A stretch of 64,000 nucleotides of DNA from Pseudotabrizicola sp. (GTDB lineage: Bacteria; Pseudomonadota; Alphaproteobacteria; Rhodobacterales; Rhodobacteraceae): positions 124,001-188,000 of the forward strand of contig NZ_JAUXOV010000077.1 of assembly GCF_030684215.1 (NCBI RefSeq), in the 5' to 3' direction. The notes beneath the pieces are model-generated. The model ran no database searches and was not told the DNA's origin. It worked only from the letters and a program-made list of their open reading frames with translations. How positions within the stretch are numbered: position 1 is the stretch's first letter; each line of letters starts with the position of its first letter. This document shows, piece after piece, positions 25,329 through 34,639 of the stretch. Position numbers and translations under genes: made by a program.

Positions 25329-25946
25329 ATGCCCAAACTATCGCCCGACGCTCCATTGATCCAATCCGATTGCCAAATCTCTGGCAGCACCTTTGGCGCT
25401 TATGTCGAGGTGGGGCCGGGTAGCCGGATCCAGAACACGCGTTTTGACGACTACGCCTATTGCGACCGCCTTTCCGACATTGCCAATGCGACAATCGGCA
25501 AATTCGCCAACATTGCCGCGATGACCCGCATTGGTCCGACTGATCACCCGATGGATCACGCAAGCCTGCACCACTTTTCGTATCGCTCCAGCTACTACTG
25601 GGACGACGTCGAAGATGACGCGGCCTTTTTTGAACGCCGTAAGACCCGACGCACCGTGATTGGCCCAGATACCTGGGTCGGGCACGGCGCGATTATCAAA
25701 CCGGATGTTACTATCGGTGCAGGCGCGGTCATCGCCGCTGGTGCAGTGGTCACGCGCGATGTGCCACCCTATACCATTGTTGCCGGTGTGCCCGCGATCC
25801 CCCTGCGCCCGCGCTTCACGCCAGCAATCGCAGACCGGTTGATGGCGCTAGCCTGGTGGGATTGGAGCCACGATCTGCTGCGAACTGCGCTGATGGATTT
25901 TCGCTCTCTGGAAGCAGAAGCGTTTCTAGAGAAATACAACGGCTAA
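25329..25946 (+). CDS. Phosphonate-locus hexapeptide-repeat transferase
   Basis: A 205-residue left-handed beta-helix protein of the DapD/chloramphenicol-acetyltransferase-like group that accompanies C-P lyase genes. Hexapeptide repeats are visible ([23 protein letters not shown]), and an internal [15 protein letters not shown] segment supplies likely acetyl-CoA and active-site histidines. It is likely an acyltransferase, possibly acetylating aminophosphonates as PhnO does in other species; that is inference. It follows phnE2 by 46 bp and ends 7 bp from the convergent phnF. Confidence 0.85.
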
Positions 25947-25953
25947 TTGGGGG

Positions 25954-26676
25954 CTATTCGGGGGCATAGGTCAGTGTGACCCGATCCCCGGCAAACCATG
26001 TTATCCCATACTCGACCGGGCGCCCGGTACTGTCCACATTGATAGCTTCGGTGCGCAGGACTGGCGCGCCCTCGGCCAGACGCAGCGAAATGCCTTGCAC
26101 CGTCGTTGCAACGCCTGCAGTTATCCGGGTTGACTGCCGGGTGTAATCCTCGACCCCACAAGCACCCAGCGCCGCCGTGATCGACTGTAGGTTTTCAATC
26201 TGCACCAGTAGCGCGGGAAACCGTTCTGCCGGGAACACCGACAGGAACACCGCCACGGGCTGATCGTCCGCCATGGACGTTCCTTCGACCACATGTACAA
26301 AAGCGCCGGATTCAAGGTTCAGACCGTCAGCCTCGGTTGGGTCCGAAGCGCGCGTCTCTAGCCGACTGAAACTGCGCGAAGCAGTGCGGCCAGACGCGGT
26401 AATATTCTGATGGAACCGGACCCGGCGGCCAAGCGGGTATTCCGTTGGCTGCATCACGACATAGACACCCGAGCCGCGACGTGAATGCAGCACACCGTCC
26501 TGTACCAAAGACTGAGTAGCATGACGAATTGTGTGTCTATTCACGCCAAAGCGCGTCGAAAGGTGCGCTTCGGTCGGCAGCTTGTCGCCCGGCTGGTAGT
26601 GCCCCTTCGCAATCTCGTCCGACAGGGTTTGCGCGATGGATTTCCAAAGTGCGCTGCGGGCGGTGGTGTCTGTCAT
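25954..26676 (-). CDS. phnF: GntR-family phosphonate regulator
   Basis: A 240-residue GntR/HutC-type regulator. The winged helix is at about residues 10-75 (KLPTEAHLSTRFGVNRHTIRHA is the recognition part), and a UTRA ligand-binding domain (~95-240) follows, with the typical EYGITWFAGDRV end. The start at 26674-26676 puts the DNA-binding domain at the N-terminus as expected. It is divergent from phnG across 102 bp that contains a tandem repeat, the likely operator. It presumably represses phnG-N until a phosphonate metabolite is bound; the ligand is unknown. Confidence 0.9.
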   Translation of the reverse strand: MTDTTARSALWKSIAQTLSDEIAKGHYQPGDKLPTEAHLSTRFGVNRHTIRHATQSLVQDGVLHSRRGSGVYVVMQPTEYPLGRRVRFHQNITASGRTASRSFSRLETRASDPTEADGLNLESGAFVHVVEGTSMADDQPVAVFLSVFPAERFPALLVQIENLQSITAALGACGVEDYTRQSTRITAGVATTVQGISLRLAEGAPVLRTEAINVDSTGRPVEYGITWFAGDRVTLTYAPE

Positions 26677-26726
26677 GAAAATTTCATGCCTCGGTTTGTT
26701 GTCTTTGGGTCTAGTTGGCGATAGAA

Positions 26727-26742
26727 GTTGTATAGTTGTATA
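26727..26742. promoter_or_regulatory. Tandem 8-bp repeat, candidate PhnF operator
   Basis: GTTGTATA occurs twice in direct succession, 36 bp upstream of phnG and inside the divergent phnF-phnG gap. A possible -35 (TTGGCG, 26715-26720) and -10 (GTATAG, 26738-26743) are 17 bp apart, so a repressor on the repeat would cover the promoter. Repeat seen directly; function inferred. Confidence 0.5.
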
Positions 26743-26778
26743 GAAAAGCAGACGTATTTGCAAGATGTCGAGGGCAGC

Positions 26779-27231
26779 ATGACCGAAGGCGCAAACACAG
26801 GGCAGCGAGAGCGGCAGATATGGATGTCGGCCATAGCCAAAGCGAACCCCGCCAGACTGGAAGAACTGATGCCGGATCTTCCGCCGTTGACCTGCCTTCG
26901 CCCACCAGAGGTTGGGGCCGTGATGGTTCAGGGACGGATCGGGGCGACAGGCGCGCCATTCAATCTTGGCGAAATGACCGTCACACGCTGTTCGGTCCGA
27001 CTGTCTGACGGCACTGTGGGACATGGCTACGCGCAGGGACGGGACAAACCCCACGCACTGCGGGCAGCGGTCCTTGATGCGCTGATGCAAACTGATCAGG
27101 CAGCGCAGGTTCGGACACGCATTTTAGACGTGCTGACGGCAAAGGCCGAGTTGGCACGAGCGCTGCGCGCAGAAAAGGCAGCCGCGACAAAGGTAGATTT
27201 CTTCACAATGGTTCGGGGAGAAGACGCATGA
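26779..27231 (+). CDS. phnG: C-P lyase core subunit PhnG
   Basis: A 150-residue PhnG. With PhnH, PhnI and PhnJ it makes the C-P lyase core complex; PhnGHI with PhnL attaches methylphosphonate to the ribose of ATP. Its family core is recognisable (PEVGAVMVQGRIGATGAPFNLGEMTVTR is split here as PEVGAVMVQGR and FNLGEMTVTRCSV; also GHGYAQGRD). The ATG at 26779 has GAGGG upstream; a longer frame from 26728 would start inside the operator. First gene of the phnG-H-I-J-K-corA-L-N run; ends in a 4-bp overlap with phnH. Confidence 0.94.
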   Translation: MTEGANTGQRERQIWMSAIAKANPARLEELMPDLPPLTCLRPPEVGAVMVQGRIGATGAPFNLGEMTVTRCSVRLSDGTVGHGYAQGRDKPHALRAAVLDALMQTDQAAQVRTRILDVLTAKAELARALRAEKAAATKVDFFTMVRGEDA

Positions 27232-27797
27232 CCGCGCAAGCGCTATCCGGTGGCTTTTCCAACCCGCCACACCAATCATCACATGCTTTTCGCGCCATAC
27301 TAGAGTCTTTTGCGCGCCCCGGAACCCTTTTGACCATTCGCGGCGCGCAACCTCCTGCACCGCTTTCAGTGGCGGCGGGCACCGCGTTGCTGACGCTTGC
27401 GGACGGGACAACGCCGGTTCATCTGGCTGGAGATGCAGATTGCCAGCCTGTGCGCGACTGGATCACCTTTCATATCGGCGCACCGCTGGTGGCCCCACAG
27501 CAAGCCATGTTTGCGATTGGCCGATGGGAAAGCCTGGCCCCCCTGAGCCGGTTTCACATCGGCGCGCCGGATTACCCTGACCGGGCGGCAACGCTGATTG
27601 TTCTGATGGACGGGTTGTCAAACAGCGGCGCGCACCTGACCGGGCCGGGAATTGCAACGAAGACCCTTCTGTCATTGCCCGAGATTGCGGCATTTCAAGA
27701 CAATGCGGCTCGGTTTCCCCTGGGCCTCGATTTTCTGTTTGTTGCAGGCAACCGCGTGGCAGGTCTGCCCCGATCTACCAAAGTGGAGGGCGCGTAA
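27228..27797 (+). CDS. phnH: C-P lyase core subunit PhnH
   Basis: A 189-residue PhnH, the non-catalytic dimeric subunit in the middle of the PhnGHIJ core. Family features include FARPGTL near the start, LTLADGTTPVHL, and FPLGLDFLFVAGNRVAGLPRST at the end (the last is the clearest; seen as GLDFLF and LPRST). It overlaps phnG by ATGA and shares one base with the phnI start (TAATG), so the proteins are probably made in fixed ratio. Confidence 0.94.
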   Translation: MTAQALSGGFSNPPHQSSHAFRAILESFARPGTLLTIRGAQPPAPLSVAAGTALLTLADGTTPVHLAGDADCQPVRDWITFHIGAPLVAPQQAMFAIGRWESLAPLSRFHIGAPDYPDRAATLIVLMDGLSNSGAHLTGPGIATKTLLSLPEIAAFQDNAARFPLGLDFLFVAGNRVAGLPRSTKVEGA

Positions 27798-28879
27798 TGT
27801 ATGTTGCGGTCAAGGGAGGCGAGCGGGCCATCGACAACGCCCACGCATGGCTGGCAGCAGAGCGCCGGGGTGATCCCTCTGTGCCAGAGCTGAGCGTCAC
27901 GCAAATTCGTGAGCAACTGAAGCTGGCCGTCAATCGTGTGATGGCAGAGGGGTCGCTTTACGACCCGGATCTTGCTGCGCTTGCGATCAAACAGGCGCGC
28001 GGCGACTTGATTGAAGCGGTGTTCCTGATTCGCGCCTATCGAACAACACTTCCCAGATTTGGCGCATCACAGCCCATCAGCACTGACGCCATGGCCGTTG
28101 ATCGCCGGGTCAGCGCAACGTTCAAAGACTTGCCGGGCGGGCAAATCCTTGGGCCAACATTCGACTACACCCATCGTCTGCTGGATTTCAAACTGGCGGC
28201 GGAAGGAGAAAGCCCGACGGCCCACACCGCCCCGGCAGATTCCGCCCCGGTCCCTCATGTGACAGAGTTCCTGAACCGGGATGGCCTGATCGAGACCGCA
28301 GAGCCATCTGACACCGCCCCCCCGGACCTGACCCGCGAGCCAATGGAGCTGCCCGCCGACCGCGCCTTGCGTTTGCAGGCTATTACGCGCGGTGATGAGG
28401 GATTTATCTTGTCGATGGCCTATTCGACGCAGCGCGGATATGGGCGCACCCATGCCTTCGTCGGCGAGTTGCGGATCGGCACGGTGTCTGTGTCGATGGA
28501 CATTCCAGAGCTTGGCTTCCCTATCGAGATTGGTGAAATCGAGGTGACAGAATGCGAAACGGTCAATCAGTTCAAAGGGTCAAAGACAGAGCCGCCCCAG
28601 TTCACGCGCGGCTACGGCCTTGTATTTGGCCAAAGCGAGCGCAAGGCGATTGCGATGTCTTTGGTGGACCGGGCCCTGCGCTGGAAAGAGTTGGGAGAAG
28701 ATTCCATCGGCGCCCCGGCTCAGGATGAGGAGTTCGTGCTGATGCATTGCGATAATATTCAGGCCACCGGATTTCTGGAGCATATCAAGCTGCCCCACTA
28801 CGTTGATTTTCAATCAGAGCTGGAGCTGGTCCGGCGATTGCGTGCCGAGGCGATGGCCGCACAGGAGGCCGCAGAATGA
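27797..28879 (+). CDS. phnI: C-P lyase core subunit PhnI
   Basis: A 360-residue PhnI, the nucleosidase-like subunit that displaces adenine from ATP during ribose-methylphosphonate triphosphate formation. Typical segments are MYVAVKGGERAI at the start, RAYRTTLPRFG, and YSTQRGYGRTHAF towards the middle, with the GELRIG and DIPELGF pieces after it. Length is normal. Start and stop overlap phnH and phnJ by 1 and 4 bp. Confidence 0.95.
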   Translation: MYVAVKGGERAIDNAHAWLAAERRGDPSVPELSVTQIREQLKLAVNRVMAEGSLYDPDLAALAIKQARGDLIEAVFLIRAYRTTLPRFGASQPISTDAMAVDRRVSATFKDLPGGQILGPTFDYTHRLLDFKLAAEGESPTAHTAPADSAPVPHVTEFLNRDGLIETAEPSDTAPPDLTREPMELPADRALRLQAITRGDEGFILSMAYSTQRGYGRTHAFVGELRIGTVSVSMDIPELGFPIEIGEIEVTECETVNQFKGSKTEPPQFTRGYGLVFGQSERKAIAMSLVDRALRWKELGEDSIGAPAQDEEFVLMHCDNIQATGFLEHIKLPHYVDFQSELELVRRLRAEAMAAQEAAE

Positions 28880-29766
28880 CCGCCCTGACCCAAGACCCAG
28901 CCTATAACTTCGCCTACCTGGACGAACAGACCAAGCGGATGATCCGTCGCGCAATCCTGAAGGCAATTGCCGTGCCGGGATATCAGGTGCCGTTTGCCAG
29001 TCGAGAAATGCCAATGCCCTATGGCTGGGGCACGGGTGGTGTGCAGGTGACTGCCGCCTGCCTGACGCCCGATGATGTTCTCAAAGTGATCGACCAAGGG
29101 GCAGACGACACCACAAACGCCGTCAGCATCCGCAAGTTTTTTCAGCGGACCGCCGGCGTTGCCGCAACCGAGGCGACAGCAGATGCAACCGTGATTCAAA
29201 CCCGGCATCGCATCCCTGAGGTGCCGCTGCACGAAGGGCAGATCCTTGTGTATCAAGTGCCGATCCCCGAACCCCTGCGCTTTCTGGAGCCACGCGAAGC
29301 AGAGACCCGCAAGATGCACGAGTTGGAAGAATACGGTCTTATGCATGTGAAGCTATACGAAGACATCGCGCGTCACGGCCAGATTGCCACCAGCTATGCC
29401 TATCCGGTCAAGGTCGAGGGGCGCTATGTCATGGACCCCTCACCCATACCAAAATTCGATAACCCAAAACTGGGGGGCTGTCCGGCCATTCAGATCTTTG
29501 GGGCGGGACGCGAACAGCGGATCTACGCCCTGCCACCCTATACCGCGGTAGTGAGTCTGGATTTCGACGATCACCCCTTTACCGCATCCAAGGCACCGCA
29601 CGACTGCGACTTGTGCGGCGCCGATGAAAGTTATCTGGATGAGGTGATTATCGATGACGCTGGAGGACGAATGTTTGTCTGTTCCGACACCGACTTTTGT
29701 GCTGGGCGGCAAACGGCAGGCCATCGCGGGCGATTATCACCCAAAGCCGCCGGAAAGGGAATGTGA
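28876..29766 (+). CDS. phnJ: C-P lyase PhnJ (radical SAM, carbon-phosphorus bond cleavage)
   Basis: A 296-residue PhnJ, the radical SAM subunit that cuts the C-P bond of ribose 1-methylphosphonate 5-phosphate. The metal-binding cysteines are Cys244, Cys247, Cys269 and Cys275 in the C-x2-C-x21-C-x5-C pattern; three bind the [4Fe-4S] cluster and one forms the thiyl radical in characterised PhnJ. All four are intact, so the enzyme should work. It starts in an ATGA overlap with phnI and its TGA overlaps the phnK ATG (TGATG). Confidence 0.97.
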   Translation: MTALTQDPAYNFAYLDEQTKRMIRRAILKAIAVPGYQVPFASREMPMPYGWGTGGVQVTAACLTPDDVLKVIDQGADDTTNAVSIRKFFQRTAGVAATEATADATVIQTRHRIPEVPLHEGQILVYQVPIPEPLRFLEPREAETRKMHELEEYGLMHVKLYEDIARHGQIATSYAYPVKVEGRYVMDPSPIPKFDNPKLGGCPAIQIFGAGREQRIYALPPYTAVVSLDFDDHPFTASKAPHDCDLCGADESYLDEVIIDDAGGRMFVCSDTDFCAGRQTAGHRGRLSPKAAGKGM

Positions 29767-30560
29767 TGGGGGTCATAGATATGACTGTGCAAAACCTGGG
29801 GCTGGATCGGCCTTTGTTGACCGTCAACACCCTGACCAAACGCTACGGCATACGGATTGGCTGTGCAGATGTGTCTTTTGACCTCTTCCCCGGCGAGGTG
29901 ATTGGGATTGTCGGCGAGAGCGGATCTGGGAAATCAACCTTGCTGTCGTGCCTTGCCGGGCATTTGCAGCCCGATCTGGGGCGGGTAACCTATTGCGGCC
30001 GCGATGTTTTGGCCATGCCCGAGACGGAGCGCAGGCGGCTTTCCCGCACAGAATGGGCCTATGTTCACCAAAACCCACGCGACGGCTTGCGTATGGGGGT
30101 CAGTGCGGGCGGTAACGTTGGCGAGCGGCTGATGGCCGTCGGCGCCCGCCACTATGGCAGCATCCGCGACACGGCAACAGACTGGCTTGGCCGCGTGGAA
30201 ATTGCAGCCGATCGGATAGACGAACGACCAAGCGCTTTTTCCGGCGGCATGCAGCAGCGGTTGCAGATTGCGCGCAATCTGGTGACCGCGCCACGGCTGG
30301 TGTTCATGGACGAACCGACCGGGGGACTTGATGTCAGCGTACAAGCGCGGTTGCTGGACCTGCTGCGTGGGCTGGTGCGAGATCTGGGTCTGTCGGCAAT
30401 CATCGTAACACATGATCTGGCTGTTGTGAGGTTGCTGGCTGACCGATTGATGGTCATGAAAGGCGGGCGCGTGGTAGAGCAGGGCTTGACCGATCAGGTG
30501 CTGGACGATCCGCAGGACGCCTATACCCAGCTTCTGGTCTCCTCTGTCTTGCAGGTGTGA
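29766..30560 (+). CDS. phnK: C-P lyase ABC-type ATPase PhnK
   Basis: A 264-residue ATPase that docks on PhnJ in the core complex and is not a transporter subunit. It has Walker A GESGSGKST, signature FSGGMQQRLQ and Walker B LVFMDEPTGGLD. The ATG at 29766 overlaps the phnJ stop and is preceded by AAAGGGA; an ATG at 29781 is possible. Three bases later an unrelated CorA-type gene begins, splitting phnK from phnL. Confidence 0.93.
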   Translation: MGVIDMTVQNLGLDRPLLTVNTLTKRYGIRIGCADVSFDLFPGEVIGIVGESGSGKSTLLSCLAGHLQPDLGRVTYCGRDVLAMPETERRRLSRTEWAYVHQNPRDGLRMGVSAGGNVGERLMAVGARHYGSIRDTATDWLGRVEIAADRIDERPSAFSGGMQQRLQIARNLVTAPRLVFMDEPTGGLDVSVQARLLDLLRGLVRDLGLSAIIVTHDLAVVRLLADRLMVMKGGRVVEQGLTDQVLDDPQDAYTQLLVSSVLQV

Positions 30561-30563
30561 CCT

Positions 30564-31523
30564 ATGCTCTTTGCCTATCGCCCGACTGATACGAAACTTG
30601 AAAAACTGCCAAATGATGGCTCGCTGGACGAGGCGGTATGGATCGACCTTTACCAGCCGCTGGACGCTCAGGTGCTGGCGGCGCAGGCCATGGGCATCGA
30701 GGTGCCGACCCTTGCCGATATGGAGGAGATCGAAATCTCTAACCGGCTGTATCGCGAAAACGGCTTCGATTACATGACTGTAGTGCTGCCGGGCATGTCG
30801 GAAACCAACGAACCAATCTCGGGGCCTGTGACCTTTATCATGACCCCGGAGCGTCTGTTCACGGTGCGCCACCATGCGCCACGACCCTTCACCACATACC
30901 CCGAGCGGGCCAACAAGGTGGGGCCGGGCTGCACCGACAGCGCGCGCCTGTTCCTGAGCCTGCTGGAGGAAGTGACCGGTCGACTGGCCGATCTGCTGGA
31001 AGGGTCGGGGCGGGCACTCGATGCGCTGGCACGCGAGGTTTACAGTGAGACCGGGACCACAGATGCCGCCCAACTGCAGGGCGCGCTGCGCCGCACAGGT
31101 CGCGAAGGCGAACAAATTGCCCGTGTGCGGCTGTCATTGCTGACCATCGAACGCGCGGTGAGCTATTTTGGCCAAAGCCTGACGACCGAGCATCGCGGGA
31201 CCGCGCTAAAAGGCCCCGTGAAGGGCTTGATGCGAGATCTGCATGCGCTGGAGGTTCATGCCGATCATCTGTCGGCGCGCGTGGCGCTGGCCAGCGACTC
31301 GACGATGGGCATGATCAATCTGAGCCAGAGCCAGACCATCAAGATCGTATCCGTCGTGGCAGTGGTGTTCCTGCCACCTACAGTGATCGCAAGCGCTTAT
31401 GGCATGAACTTCGAGGTCATGCCCGAATTGCAATGGACGCTCGGCTATCCGATGGCGCTGAGCATGATGGTGGCCTCGGCAGTGGGCACCTATCTTTTCT
31501 TCAAATGGAGGCGCTGGCTATGA
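30564..31523 (+). CDS. CorA-family divalent cation channel, embedded in the phn operon
   Basis: A 319-residue CorA-type protein. The large N-terminal cytoplasmic region (~1-255) is followed by two C-terminal membrane helices; the diagnostic YGMNF motif closes the first. The family makes pentameric Mg2+ (or Co2+/Ni2+) channels in the inner membrane. The gene starts 3 bp after phnK and overlaps phnL by ATGA, so it is a true operon member and not a late insertion with its own promoter. Why a cation channel would be made with C-P lyase is unknown; ATP-dependent PhnK/L/N and the metal-dependent PhnM need Mg2+ or other metals, but that link is inference. Confidence 0.88.
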   Translation: MLFAYRPTDTKLEKLPNDGSLDEAVWIDLYQPLDAQVLAAQAMGIEVPTLADMEEIEISNRLYRENGFDYMTVVLPGMSETNEPISGPVTFIMTPERLFTVRHHAPRPFTTYPERANKVGPGCTDSARLFLSLLEEVTGRLADLLEGSGRALDALAREVYSETGTTDAAQLQGALRRTGREGEQIARVRLSLLTIERAVSYFGQSLTTEHRGTALKGPVKGLMRDLHALEVHADHLSARVALASDSTMGMINLSQSQTIKIVSVVAVVFLPPTVIASAYGMNFEVMPELQWTLGYPMALSMMVASAVGTYLFFKWRRWL

Positions 31524-32212
31524 CAGCGATGATCGAAATTTCCGACCTGTCCAAGGCATTCATCCTGCACAATCAGGGCGGGGCAGTAATACCGGTGATG
31601 GCAGGGGCGGCGTTGCAGGTGGCGGCAGGCGAATGCGTTGGCCTGACCGGGCAATCGGGCGCCGGCAAATCAACGCTGATGCGGATGGTGTATGGCAATT
31701 ACCTGACGGCCGGGGGCCGGCTGCTGGTGGCCGGAACGGATGTGGCGCAGGCCGCGCCACGTGACATCATCGCCCTGCGACGGAATACTCTGGGCTATGT
31801 CAGCCAGTTTCTGCGGGTGGTGCCACGTGTGCCGACAGTGGATGTGGTCGCCGAACCACTGCTGCGGTTGGGTATGCACCCCACAAAGGCGAGGGCGAGG
31901 GCTGAAGATCTGCTGTCGCGACTGAATATCCCAACCCGGCTTTGGCCCTTGTCGCCCACCACATTTTCGGGCGGTGAGCAACAACGCGTTAACATTGCGC
32001 GCGGCTTTGCCCACACCTTTCCGGTTCTGCTACTGGATGAGCCGACAGCCAGCCTCGACGCCGCAAACCGCGACGTGGTGCTGACCCTGATCGAGGAAGC
32101 CAAGGCGCGGGGCGCGGCGATCCTTGGGATTTTTCACGACGAAGGCGCGCGGGCGCGGGTCTGTGACCGCTTGGTGGATGTGACCGGGTTTACGCCGGGC
32201 CTTGCCGCATGA
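31520..32212 (+). CDS. phnL: C-P lyase ABC-type ATPase PhnL
   Basis: A 230-residue ATPase paralogous to PhnK. It has Walker A GQSGAGKST, signature FSGGEQQRVN and Walker B LLLDEPTASLD. It is needed with PhnGHI for coupling phosphonate to ribose and can cap the PhnK-bound complex. The ATG at 31520 overlaps the corA stop; the frame upstream to 31433 is inside corA. Overlaps phnN by 4 bp. Confidence 0.94.
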   Translation: MTAMIEISDLSKAFILHNQGGAVIPVMAGAALQVAAGECVGLTGQSGAGKSTLMRMVYGNYLTAGGRLLVAGTDVAQAAPRDIIALRRNTLGYVSQFLRVVPRVPTVDVVAEPLLRLGMHPTKARARAEDLLSRLNIPTRLWPLSPTTFSGGEQQRVNIARGFAHTFPVLLLDEPTASLDAANRDVVLTLIEEAKARGAAILGIFHDEGARARVCDRLVDVTGFTPGLAA

Positions 32213-32739
32213 TCTTTGCCGTTGTTGGCCCATCGGGCGCTGGAAAGGACACGCTGATCGCAGGTGCCTGTGCCTTGTATCCTGAGCTTCAGCTGGTGCG
32301 CCGGGTGATCACACGGCCTGCAGATGCAGGTGGAGAAGATTTCGAAGGCGTGACCGAGGCGCAGTTTCTGCGGCGTCGCGCAATGGGTGAATTCGCACTG
32401 GACTGGCAGGCACATGGGCTTTGGTATGGTATACCAAAACAACACCTAACAGCAAACGGGCCAATCTTGTTCAACGGCTCTCGCGCTGCACTTATGGCCG
32501 CGATGGCGCTTATGCCGGATCTGGTGGTTATTCTTGTCACAGCCCCGGCCGAGGTTCTGGCCATGCGATTGGCTGCGCGGGGGCGTGAATGCGTGGAAGA
32601 CGTGCGCGCAAGACTGGAGCGGGCCGGGTTTGCGCTGCCTGACGGGATTGTCCCACGGATTGTGGTGAATGACAGCAGCCCGGACATAGGTGTTGCCCGC
32701 TTTCTTGCTGCGCTCTACCCGCCTAATGGGAAACGGTGA
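32209..32739 (+). CDS. phnN: Ribose 1,5-bisphosphate phosphokinase
   Basis: A 176-residue kinase that makes PRPP from ribose 1,5-bisphosphate, the salvage end of the C-P lyase route. The P-loop GPSGAGKDT at residues 7-15 and the guanylate-kinase-like fold are clear. ATGA overlap with phnL. Its last 25 bp overlap the 3' end of the convergent DUF1045 gene. Confidence 0.93.
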   Translation: MIFAVVGPSGAGKDTLIAGACALYPELQLVRRVITRPADAGGEDFEGVTEAQFLRRRAMGEFALDWQAHGLWYGIPKQHLTANGPILFNGSRAALMAAMALMPDLVVILVTAPAEVLAMRLAARGRECVEDVRARLERAGFALPDGIVPRIVVNDSSPDIGVARFLAALYPPNGKR

Positions 32740-33404
32740 AGCAGATGAAAGAGGCCCTGCGCATCCTCACCAAACAGGCAGAGATCATCGACGCGAAAGG
32801 GGCTTGGCAGCACCGGCGCAAGATATGCGGACAACGCAGCCGCTGTGTTTTCGGCATGCTGGGGCGCAAGGCGGTTGGTGAGTGTCAGATGAAAATGGAA
32901 CTCATCCATCACATGCGGGTAGCCCCATTCATCAAGCAACGCGCGCTGATGGTCCGAGAGCGACTCGGGGCGACGCCGCGACCGCTCTTCCGGGCTGAGC
33001 GGCGCGCGCAGGGGGTTGGTTGCACGCACAACCTTTGCCGCGAGGTGGTTCAGGTCGGCCAGATCACCAGATGGGATGAGGGCAAGAAAGCCGTGGAGGT
33101 TTTCAACGCGCAGCCCATCACAGACCGCTGGCGAAAGCCCCGTCGAGAGAGCGCGAACCGTGTGGACAACAGCATCGGGCGACAGCGAGGGCGCAAGCCG
33201 GAATGGCGCGCGGATTGTTCCATGAAAGCCATATTTGCGCGGCTCGGCGGTCAATTCAGACAAGGGCGCGTGCAGGCCGGGAAGGGCCGGCTGTGGCACG
33301 GACAGGCCCGATACGCTGTCCCAACCCAAAAGCGCGGCCGTTGCATCGGCAAACGCTCCGGGGCGCGGCGCGAAATAGACGGCGAAACGATTCATCTGAT
33401 CCAT
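32715..33404 (-). CDS. DUF1045 phosphonate-locus protein with 2H-phosphoesterase motifs
   Basis: A ~229-residue protein of the DUF1045 family found with C-P lyase genes. Two H-x-[ST]-like motifs are visible: HGTI in the first third and HFHLTLT in the last third, the paired active-site histidines of 2H phosphoesterases, which act on cyclic or RNA phosphodiesters. FAVYFAPRPG is the family N-terminus. I placed the start at ATG 33402-33404. ATG 33393-33395 and ATG 33453-33455 are alternatives; the last has an AAGGGG site but adds 17 residues. It lies opposite to phnN and phnM and overlaps the phnN end. Its reaction is not established; it may hydrolyse the cyclic ribose phosphate that PhnP handles elsewhere. 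Confidence 0.85.
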   Translation of the reverse strand: MDQMNRFAVYFAPRPGAFADATAALLGWDSVSGLSVPQPALPGLHAPLSELTAEPRKYGFHGTIRAPFRLAPSLSPDAVVHTVRALSTGLSPAVCDGLRVENLHGFLALIPSGDLADLNHLAAKVVRATNPLRAPLSPEERSRRRPESLSDHQRALLDEWGYPHVMDEFHFHLTLTNRLAPQHAENTAAALSAYLAPVLPSPFRVDDLCLFGEDAQGLFHLLHRFPLGG

Positions 33405-33424
33405 GGCGACGGCATAAGGTGGAA

Positions 33425-33442
33425 TTGTCACACAAGCGTGAC
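33425..33442 (+). promoter_or_regulatory. PHO-box-like direct repeat upstream of phnM
   Basis: TTGTCAC-ACAA-GCGTGAC has the 7-4-7 layout with 11-bp period of a PhoB site, 54 bp before the phnM start. The second half is a poor match. It also forms an inverted pair (GTCAC and GTGAC). Function is speculative. Confidence 0.3.
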
Positions 33443-33496
33443 GCTTCCGTGTCATTGCACCCCTTGCCCCACGGATCGCAAGACAGGACTTGAAAC

Positions 33497-34639
33497 ATGA
33501 CGGATGTAATCCTTGAAAATGCCATGCTGGTGTTGCCTGACGGGGTGCGCAGAGGCTCTGTTCGCATGAAAGAGGGCGTGATTGTTGATATCAGCGACAG
33601 CCCCAGCCGCGTGGCAGGCGTGGTGGATTGTGAAGGCGATCTGGTGATGCCGGGGCTGATCGAGTTGCACACAGACAATCTGGAGCGCCATATCGAACCT
33701 CGGCCAAAGGTAAACTGGCCCCATCAGGCGGCGATCATTGCACATGATGCAGAACTGGCAAGCGTTGGGATTACGACAGTGTTTGACGCCCTGCGGGTCG
33801 GGTCGGTGACATCAAACGCAAAGGCGAACTACGGCGAATATGCCCGCGCGCTGGCCGATGAGATTCTGGACCTGAGGAGCCGCGGCGCGCTTCGGATCAG
33901 CCACTTTCTGCACCTGAGGGCTGAAGTGTGTTCGGAAACGTTGGTCAGCGAAATGGCAAAGTTCGGGCCGGAAGACCGGATCGGCATCGTCAGCTTGATG
34001 GACCATACACCGGGAGAACGGCAGTTCCGGGATGTTTCGAAATTGAGGGACTATGTTTGCGGCAAACACGGTCTGACAGACGAAGGTTTTGATGACCACG
34101 TTGCCAGCCAGCGTGCGCTGCGCGACAGGCTGGGCGCGCTGCATGAGGCAACGGCCGTGGCAGAATCTCGGCGCTATGGCGCAACTTTGGCCAGCCATGA
34201 CGATACGACAACATCGCAGGTGGCGGCGTCGGCTAGTCATGGCGTAACCTTTGCCGAGTTTCCCACGACTGTAGAGGCGGCAAAGGCCTGTGTGCAGCAC
34301 GGCATCAAGGTGATGATGGGTGCGCCGAACCTGATCCGGGGCGGCTCTCATTCGGGTAATGTGGCGGCAAGCACATTGGCAGAGGCCGATCTGCTGGATA
34401 TCGTCTCTTCGGATTATGTGCCGTCGTCTCTGCTGTCTGCGGCTTTGCTGCTGGGGGATCTGTGGGGCGACATTGCGCGCGGCGTGCAGACCGTGACACG
34501 CGCCCCCGCTCTGGCGACCGGCCTGACGGACCGCGGACAACTCGCCGTGGGCGCGCGGGCCGATGTGCTTCGGGTCAAGCGGATTTCCGGAGCAGCTGCT
34601 GTGCACGGAACTTGGGTCATGGGGAACAGGGTGGCCTGA
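33497..34639 (+). CDS. phnM: Ribose 1-methylphosphonate 5-triphosphate diphosphohydrolase
   Basis: A 380-residue metal-dependent hydrolase of the amidohydrolase fold. It removes pyrophosphate from the ribose-phosphonate triphosphate to give the substrate of PhnJ. GLIELHTDNLERH holds the first metal ligands and SHDDTT a later one; FPTTVEAA and MGAPNLIRGGSHSGN are family markers. It starts 92 bp from the divergent DUF1045 gene, so it probably has its own promoter and is not part of the phnG-N transcript. A hairpin spans its stop codon. Confidence 0.95.
   Translation: MTDVILENAMLVLPDGVRRGSVRMKEGVIVDISDSPSRVAGVVDCEGDLVMPGLIELHTDNLERHIEPRPKVNWPHQAAIIAHDAELASVGITTVFDALRVGSVTSNAKANYGEYARALADEILDLRSRGALRISHFLHLRAEVCSETLVSEMAKFGPEDRIGIVSLMDHTPGERQFRDVSKLRDYVCGKHGLTDEGFDDHVASQRALRDRLGALHEATAVAESRRYGATLASHDDTTTSQVAASASHGVTFAEFPTTVEAAKACVQHGIKVMMGAPNLIRGGSHSGNVAASTLAEADLLDIVSSDYVPSSLLSAALLLGDLWGDIARGVQTVTRAPALATGLTDRGQLAVGARADVLRVKRISGAAAVHGTWVMGNRVA

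Follow-up and report, generated by a model that had tools for sequence, protein, structure and literature searches.

Known and proposed enzymes for the opening of the cyclic phosphate

PhnP, a metallo-beta-lactamase-fold protein (TIGR03307), takes its place in the C-P lyase pathway between PhnJ and PhnN, and the DUF1045 protein examined here shares that place and, presumably, the reaction, namely the opening of 5-phosphoribosyl 1,2-cyclic phosphate (PRcP). In fold and motifs the two are unrelated (metallo-beta-lactamase versus 2H), and PhnP over its cut-off was never found alongside DUF1045 in 141 genomes. The proposal that DUF1045 replaces PhnP is already published and is not new. In a passage of Martinez et al. 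2013 (PMC3840354) the rcsF protein is termed probably analogous to PhnP, an analogy repeated in statements found in PMC5649143 and PMC6981132, while a 2021 paper, in a sentence that cites a 2014 review, refers to DUF1045 as a putative phosphoribosyl cyclic phosphodiesterase (PMC8235418), and the replacement idea likewise appears in a passage of PMC10574752. As these passages of PMC3840354 and PMC8235418 describe it, the rcsF/DUF1045 of C-P lyase clusters has the same genomic place and the same proposed role as the protein of our locus, with nothing essential differing; PMC8235418 names DUF1045, and the rcsF of PMC3840354 is presumed to be the same protein. The DUF1045 protein of our locus is a further member of this group.

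According to passages of PMC3840354, fosmid B3_TF_MPn_2, given there as carrying rcsF and no phnP, allowed growth of an E. coli delta-phnHIJKLMNOP strain on methylphosphonate; since the inserts of that library average 40 kb, other genes may help in this complementation. A cluster of this type, from marine Rhodobacterales, supports growth on methylphosphonate according to published work. In Phaeobacter, as stated in section 7 of PMC10132767, P limitation raised the level of the DUF1045 protein in wild-type cells, and the protein was undetected in delta-phoB. No enzymatic test of DUF1045 was found in the titles and abstract openings searched, a range that left most subscription journals outside. 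The opening of PRcP is the last step to be settled in this variant of the pathway, and Pfam still labels DUF1045 as of "unknown function" despite its near-universal presence in PhnJ-bearing alphaproteobacteria.

Among characterized 2H enzymes, the Arabidopsis Appr>p cyclic phosphodiesterase (1jh6, 1fsi, 1jh7) shares its fold with the predicted DUF1045 model, and both proteins have the two HxT/S motifs that the abstract of PMC5283653 gives as a trait of the superfamily. They differ in that the structural alignment shows 12–15% identity, the Arabidopsis chains have 170–185 residues versus 229 aa, and the Arabidopsis substrate is of the ADP-ribose type, whereas that of DUF1045 is presumed to be 5-phosphoribose. 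An alternative enzyme for the same intermediate is phnPP, which converts PRcP to ribose 5-phosphate, a different product, and bypasses PhnN. It belongs to the PHP family, with a fold other than that of DUF1045.

The C-P lyase cluster and its DUF1045 gene

The window, that is the whole 64,000-nucleotide stretch of the Pseudotabrizicola sp. contig that was analysed, carries a C-P lyase cluster in the order phnG, phnH, phnI, phnJ, a phnK-like ABC ATPase gene, a CorA-like gene, a phnL-like ABC ATPase gene, phnN, the DUF1045 gene (reverse) and phnM. The features are as follows.

25329..25946, plus strand: hexapeptide transferase of phn clusters (TIGR03308, 301.2 bits, over the cut-off of 201.65)
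25954..27090, minus strand: phnF, GntR-type regulator (TIGR02325, 210.5 bits, over the cut-off of 156.8)
26728..27231, plus strand: phnG (PF06754, 169.5 bits; mechanical start, the model covers residues 28–164)
27228..27797, plus strand: phnH (PF05845, 178.6 bits)
27797..28879, plus strand: phnI (PF05861, 553 bits)
28876..29766, plus strand: phnJ, the C-P lyase that gives rise to the 1,2-cyclic phosphate (PF06007, 479 bits)
29697..30560, plus strand: ABC ATPase read as phnK (ABC_tran, 114.7 bits; mechanical start)
31433..32212, plus strand: ABC ATPase read as phnL (ABC_tran, 99.4 bits; mechanical start)
32209..32739, plus strand: phnN, ribose 1,5-bisphosphokinase, the next step (TIGR02322, 153.7 bits, just under the cut-off of 156)
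32715..33404, minus strand: DUF1045/TIGR03223, named rcsF by some authors, a predicted phosphodiesterase of the 2H type for phosphoribosyl 1,2-cyclic phosphate (H61-x-T63, H172-x-T174)
33405..33496, no strand: DUF1045/phnM divergent intergenic region (palindrome TGTCAC-N6-GTGACG at 33426–33443)
33497..34639, plus strand: phnM, ribosyl phosphonate triphosphate diphosphatase, divergent from DUF1045 (TIGR02318, 419.8 bits, over the cut-off of 390.55)

The first-pass annotation had read phnG to phnN and phnM in the window, and this reading holds, with PhnG, PhnH, PhnI and PhnJ over their Pfam cut-offs and, by NCBIfam cut-offs, PhnM over and PhnN just under. The names phnK and phnL follow the gene order and are presumed, the profile showing ABC_tran only. 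The mechanical ORF of phnF is probably overlong, as the PhnF model covers residues 143–374. The CorA-like transporter gene (30564–31523) lies in the operon between the phnK-like and phnL-like genes, and 15 of the 80 related stretches also contain CorA-like ORFs at some position.

The DUF1045 ORF starts with an ATG at 33404 and encodes 229 aa on the strand opposite to phnN and phnM. Its 3′ end overlaps that of phnN tail-to-tail by 25 bp, while 92 bp separate it head-to-head from phnM; the ORF coordinates thus confirm the position between these two genes given in the earlier annotation. The protein belongs to Pfam DUF1045 (PF06299, 178.2 bits against a cut-off of 24.3). Against TIGR03223 it scored 236.1 bits over profile positions 2–227 of 228, below the cut-off of 248.95, as is common among its relatives (34 of 80 matching Alphaproteobacteria genomes). 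It also gave a 2_5_RNA_ligase2 match of 27.4 bits (cut-off 27) spanning the second motif. TIGR03307 showed no match to the protein or at its locus, which places it outside the PhnP family of the metallo-beta-lactamase fold. The arrangement phnM, DUF1045, phnN, phnL is the standard layout, being present in identical order and orientation in 53 of the 80 relatives that a similarity search retrieved, some of whose stretches are short.

Conserved motifs and predicted fold

The two HxT/S motifs of the 2H phosphoesterase superfamily are present in the DUF1045 protein. In an alignment of 48 rows (45 distinct genes, three of them present twice), H61, T63 and H172 were found in all rows and T174 in 46, with Ser in the other 2. 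The motifs reported earlier were recovered as HGTI (H61-G-T63) and H172-L-T174, while the first histidine of HFHLTLT (H170) was not conserved.

The structure was predicted with confidence (pLDDT 96.8, pTM 0.92). At E<=0.001, this predicted model matched 11 PDB chains, comprising YjcG, the Arabidopsis Appr>p cyclic phosphodiesterase (five chains), 2′-5′ RNA-ligase-like/phosphoesterase proteins (three chains) and trypanosome mitoribosome entries (two chains); E. coli LigT came next in the list, from E 1.1e-3. The hits to YjcG and the plant enzyme (E of 3.9e-7 to 2.4e-4 in Foldseek) place the model in the 2H fold, with TM of 0.56–0.68 by target and 0.46–0.56 by query and rmsd of 4.9–6.4 A. Judged on the predicted model, this agreement is moderate, being at the level of the superfamily rather than of close kin. 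Searching the PDB by sequence with the DUF1045 protein returned no similar chain, the only entry being 2fyh at E 0.75.

DUF1045 and PhnP in PhnJ-bearing genomes

PhnJ was found in 65 of 385 Alphaproteobacteria genomes. DUF1045 was present in 64 of these 65, versus 16 of the 320 PhnJ-negative ones, and PhnP over its cut-off in none, with DUF1045 counted at E<=0.001 and PhnP by the different rule of a curated cut-off, applied in this and the further set to matches listed at E<=1e-20. We examined 76 of 93 further PhnJ-positive genomes, comprising all 32 from outside Alphaproteobacteria, 21 of the same family and 23 of 40 of the same class, and identified DUF1045 in 49 and PhnP over cut-off in 25. 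The combined 141 genomes had DUF1045 only in 113 cases, PhnP only in 25, both in none and neither in 3 (G161, G666 and G669), a mutual exclusion with a Fisher p of 9e-25, in which kinship is not corrected for. Since much of this split tracks taxonomy, mostly class boundaries, the p-values overstate the evidence, and the number of independent events lies far below 141. Among the 32 PhnJ-positive genomes outside Alphaproteobacteria, DUF1045 was found in 5, PhnP in 25, both in none and neither in 2 (Fisher p 1e-4), and one family, f195, was mixed, with DUF1045 in G563 and G739 and PhnP in G659. One genome, G414, was dropped from the counts (18.9 bits, internal stops).

Altogether, 108 of 109 PhnJ-bearing alphaproteobacteria tested had DUF1045, one of them weakly. 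In the Rhodobacteraceae-type family it was present in 65 of 66 PhnJ-positive genomes, the exception being G840; this set of 150 genomes overlaps the other sets and was not added to the 141. Surveys with phnP as marker would miss or mislabel such a route.

DUF1045 is also linked to the cluster by position. It lay within 15 kb of phnJ in 50 of the 64 Alphaproteobacteria genomes, and on another contig or more than 15 kb away in the other 14, including G259 with its weak match (62.7 bits). PhnN, counted at 90 bits or more, was found in 55 of the 65 PhnJ-positive Alphaproteobacteria genomes and absent from 8 of the 63 with a strong DUF1045, figures in which a PhnN could be missed, since 40–45 first-look candidates were scored per genome. 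Where both genes were present, DUF1045 and phnN were at most 300 bp apart in 36 of 60 genomes, and 26 of these 36 pairs were convergent or divergent.

Several genomes departed from the usual composition. G161 and G259 (L058 and L059) are small-genome alphaproteobacteria with C-P lyase and without PhnP over cut-off, PhnN or a phn-linked DUF1045. G666 and G669 (L151 and L152) have C-P lyase clusters without PhnP over cut-off or DUF1045 and belong to family f201, other members of which have PhnP; the phnN match of G666 comes in two pieces, with a TAG. A divergent PhnJ, with 377.5–396.6 bits compared to 437–507 for other full matches, was detected in 12 genomes (G022, G443, G530, G637, G759, G801, G803, G807, G829, G836, G847 and G870), mostly as a second copy; in G801 the PhnJ is solely of the divergent kind.

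Proposed reaction and other candidate enzymes

It is very probable, in our judgement, that the DUF1045 protein stands in for PhnP in this phosphonate operon as a metal-independent 2H cyclic phosphodiesterase. The first-pass annotation had likewise suggested that it may replace PhnP, a reading supported by the lack of a PhnP over cut-off in the genome, the mutual exclusion, the near-invariant HxT motifs, the fold match, the linkage to phnN and phnM and the complementation described in the passages of PMC3840354 cited above. As to substrate, regiochemistry, residue roles and metal independence, we infer the following course. PhnJ would release PRcP, for which H61 and H172 of the DUF1045 protein would serve as the acid/base pair while T63 and T174 would hold the phosphate. 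Water would then open the 2-O-P bond to give alpha-D-ribose 1,5-bisphosphate, and PhnN would phosphorylate the latter to PRPP. By analogy, Appr>p-type chemistry applied to PRcP would most likely yield ribose 1,5-bisphosphate, on which PhnN acts.

The first-pass annotation had named beforehand what would speak against this replacement, namely a phnP at another place in the genome. We searched the whole genome (4.44 Mb in 81 contigs, completeness 100) with TIGR03307 and found no PhnP over the cut-off of 272 bits. The sole match at E<=0.001 was a metallo-beta-lactamase-fold protein on another contig (G000 contig 74; L001:1486-2301) with 48.4 bits (50.9 in a repeat), adjoining two genes whose translations look like those of tatD and holB. 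One could suppose that this protein opens PRcP while DUF1045 does something else, and a comparison in a Marivita paper lists phnP by KEGG number in 7 of 7 genomes (PMC8774927), perhaps through this very paralogue. We consider this very unlikely, as the protein is far under the cut-off and scores higher with another metallo-beta-lactamase family (209.7 bits, which again falls short of the cut-off, here 360). PhnP-model matches listed at E<=1e-20 in the 65 PhnJ-positive Alphaproteobacteria genomes numbered 15, at 76–94 bits with none over cut-off, and the best 10 of the 15 were all relatives of this protein (41–49% identity), each beside a TatD-like gene. Since the match in this genome and those best ten are the tatD-linked protein and its kin, the search does not refute the replacement. 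Moreover, the protein was present in only 1 of 80 fetched DUF1045 stretches (L126, which has no PhnJ). Another candidate is a PHP-family phosphodiesterase that would convert PRcP to ribose 5-phosphate and Pi, leaving DUF1045 without the opening step. The phnPP branch is described in a passage of PMC8774927, Phaeobacter has a PHP protein that depends on PhoB according to a passage of PMC10132767, and this genome encodes a 310-aa PHP protein. We find such a route hardly credible here, given that the 310-aa protein falls in the CehA/McbA group (96.7 bits, over the cut-off of 80), that all three PHP matches are on contigs other than that of the phn genes, and that the branch would deprive phnN, present in 55 of the 65 genomes, of its substrate from this pathway. 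The strongest of the three matches sits in a 1146-aa frame, presumably DNA polymerase III alpha.

The metallo-beta-lactamase-fold protein beside the TatD-like gene may also be the one that surveys based on KEGG record as "phnP" for these bacteria.

DUF1045 in genomes without PhnJ

DUF1045 also persists without C-P lyase. It was kept in 29 of 84 PhnJ-negative genomes of the Rhodobacteraceae-type family, compared with the 16 of 320 in the Alphaproteobacteria draw. We searched for PhnN in those 29 family genomes, 13 of 15 other PhnJ-negative genomes of the class, G840, and 20 controls taken from the 55 family genomes with neither PhnJ nor DUF1045; G030 and G337, with weak matches, were left out. 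PhnN was present in just 2 of 42 PhnJ-negative DUF1045 genomes and in 1 of the 20 controls, so phnN is not supported as a companion of stand-alone DUF1045. Together with the 29 of 84, this makes a second role possible. These PhnJ-less copies are either leftovers, as L126 suggests, or an enzyme with a second role.

In one version of the latter, DUF1045 would be an enzyme for the repair or salvage of cyclic phosphates in general that phn clusters have recruited, with PRcP as one of several substrates; we regard this as possible though rather improbable, and it is compatible with PhnP replacement by the phn-linked copies. Besides the retention in family genomes, it is favoured by an alignment of 16 PhnJ-negative Alphaproteobacteria proteins, where the motif residues are kept apart from one change of T174 to Ser, and by the scatter of the stand-alone copies, which a quick tree with SH-aLRT support only does not unite (20 changes) and which had no common neighbour in 17 loci. 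Against it stand the steep difference between PhnJ-positive and PhnJ-negative Alphaproteobacteria (64 of 65 versus 16 of 320), the partial clustering of the stand-alone label on the tree (20 changes versus a shuffled mean of 25.2, with 3 of 500 shuffles as low) and at least one PhnJ-less copy, that of L126, whose neighbours are a PhnN-like ORF and a short PhnM-like one, as in a leftover of a lost operon. A related reading, which we put forward tentatively and with some doubt, is that DUF1045 is a wider ribose-cyclic-phosphate enzyme that clears ribosyl cyclic phosphate of another source without PhnJ or PhnN, in some cases with just PhnM or a PhnM-like protein as its partner; the replacement of PhnP would then be a recruitment. 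Spontaneous decay of PRPP yields PRcP and is a possible example of such a source.

The quick tree did not support the stand-alone copies as a single subfamily of their own. The only neighbour family in more than 3 loci besides DUF1045 (6 loci) proved to be shadow ORFs on the opposite strand of DUF1045. The stand-alone sets were defined by different rules, with 16 loci including L126 for the neighbour analysis and 19 including L077 and L128 for the tree; A2 drew on 51 of 80 loci. In four PhnJ-negative loci (L044, L047, L050 and L051) DUF1045 lies beside phnM, with phnF nearby in two and one phnM cut by the contig end, and at L077 and L128 DUF1045 has a neighbour that weakly resembles PhnM.

A palindrome between DUF1045 and phnM

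The sequence TGTCAC-N6-GTGACG in the DUF1045/phnM intergenic region is one mismatch from a perfect palindrome. In the window alone, three sites with at most 2 mismatches were detected, which is not above chance (mean 1.97), and none lay between phnG and phnF. The 80 related stretches (1.53 Mb) had 95 sites versus 38 by base shuffling. The 95 included 38 in the short stretch that separates phnM from DUF1045 and another 11 in the phnG/phnF interval. From this enrichment the palindrome is likely a shared operator in the relatives, and the copy at 33426–33443 is a candidate phn operator.
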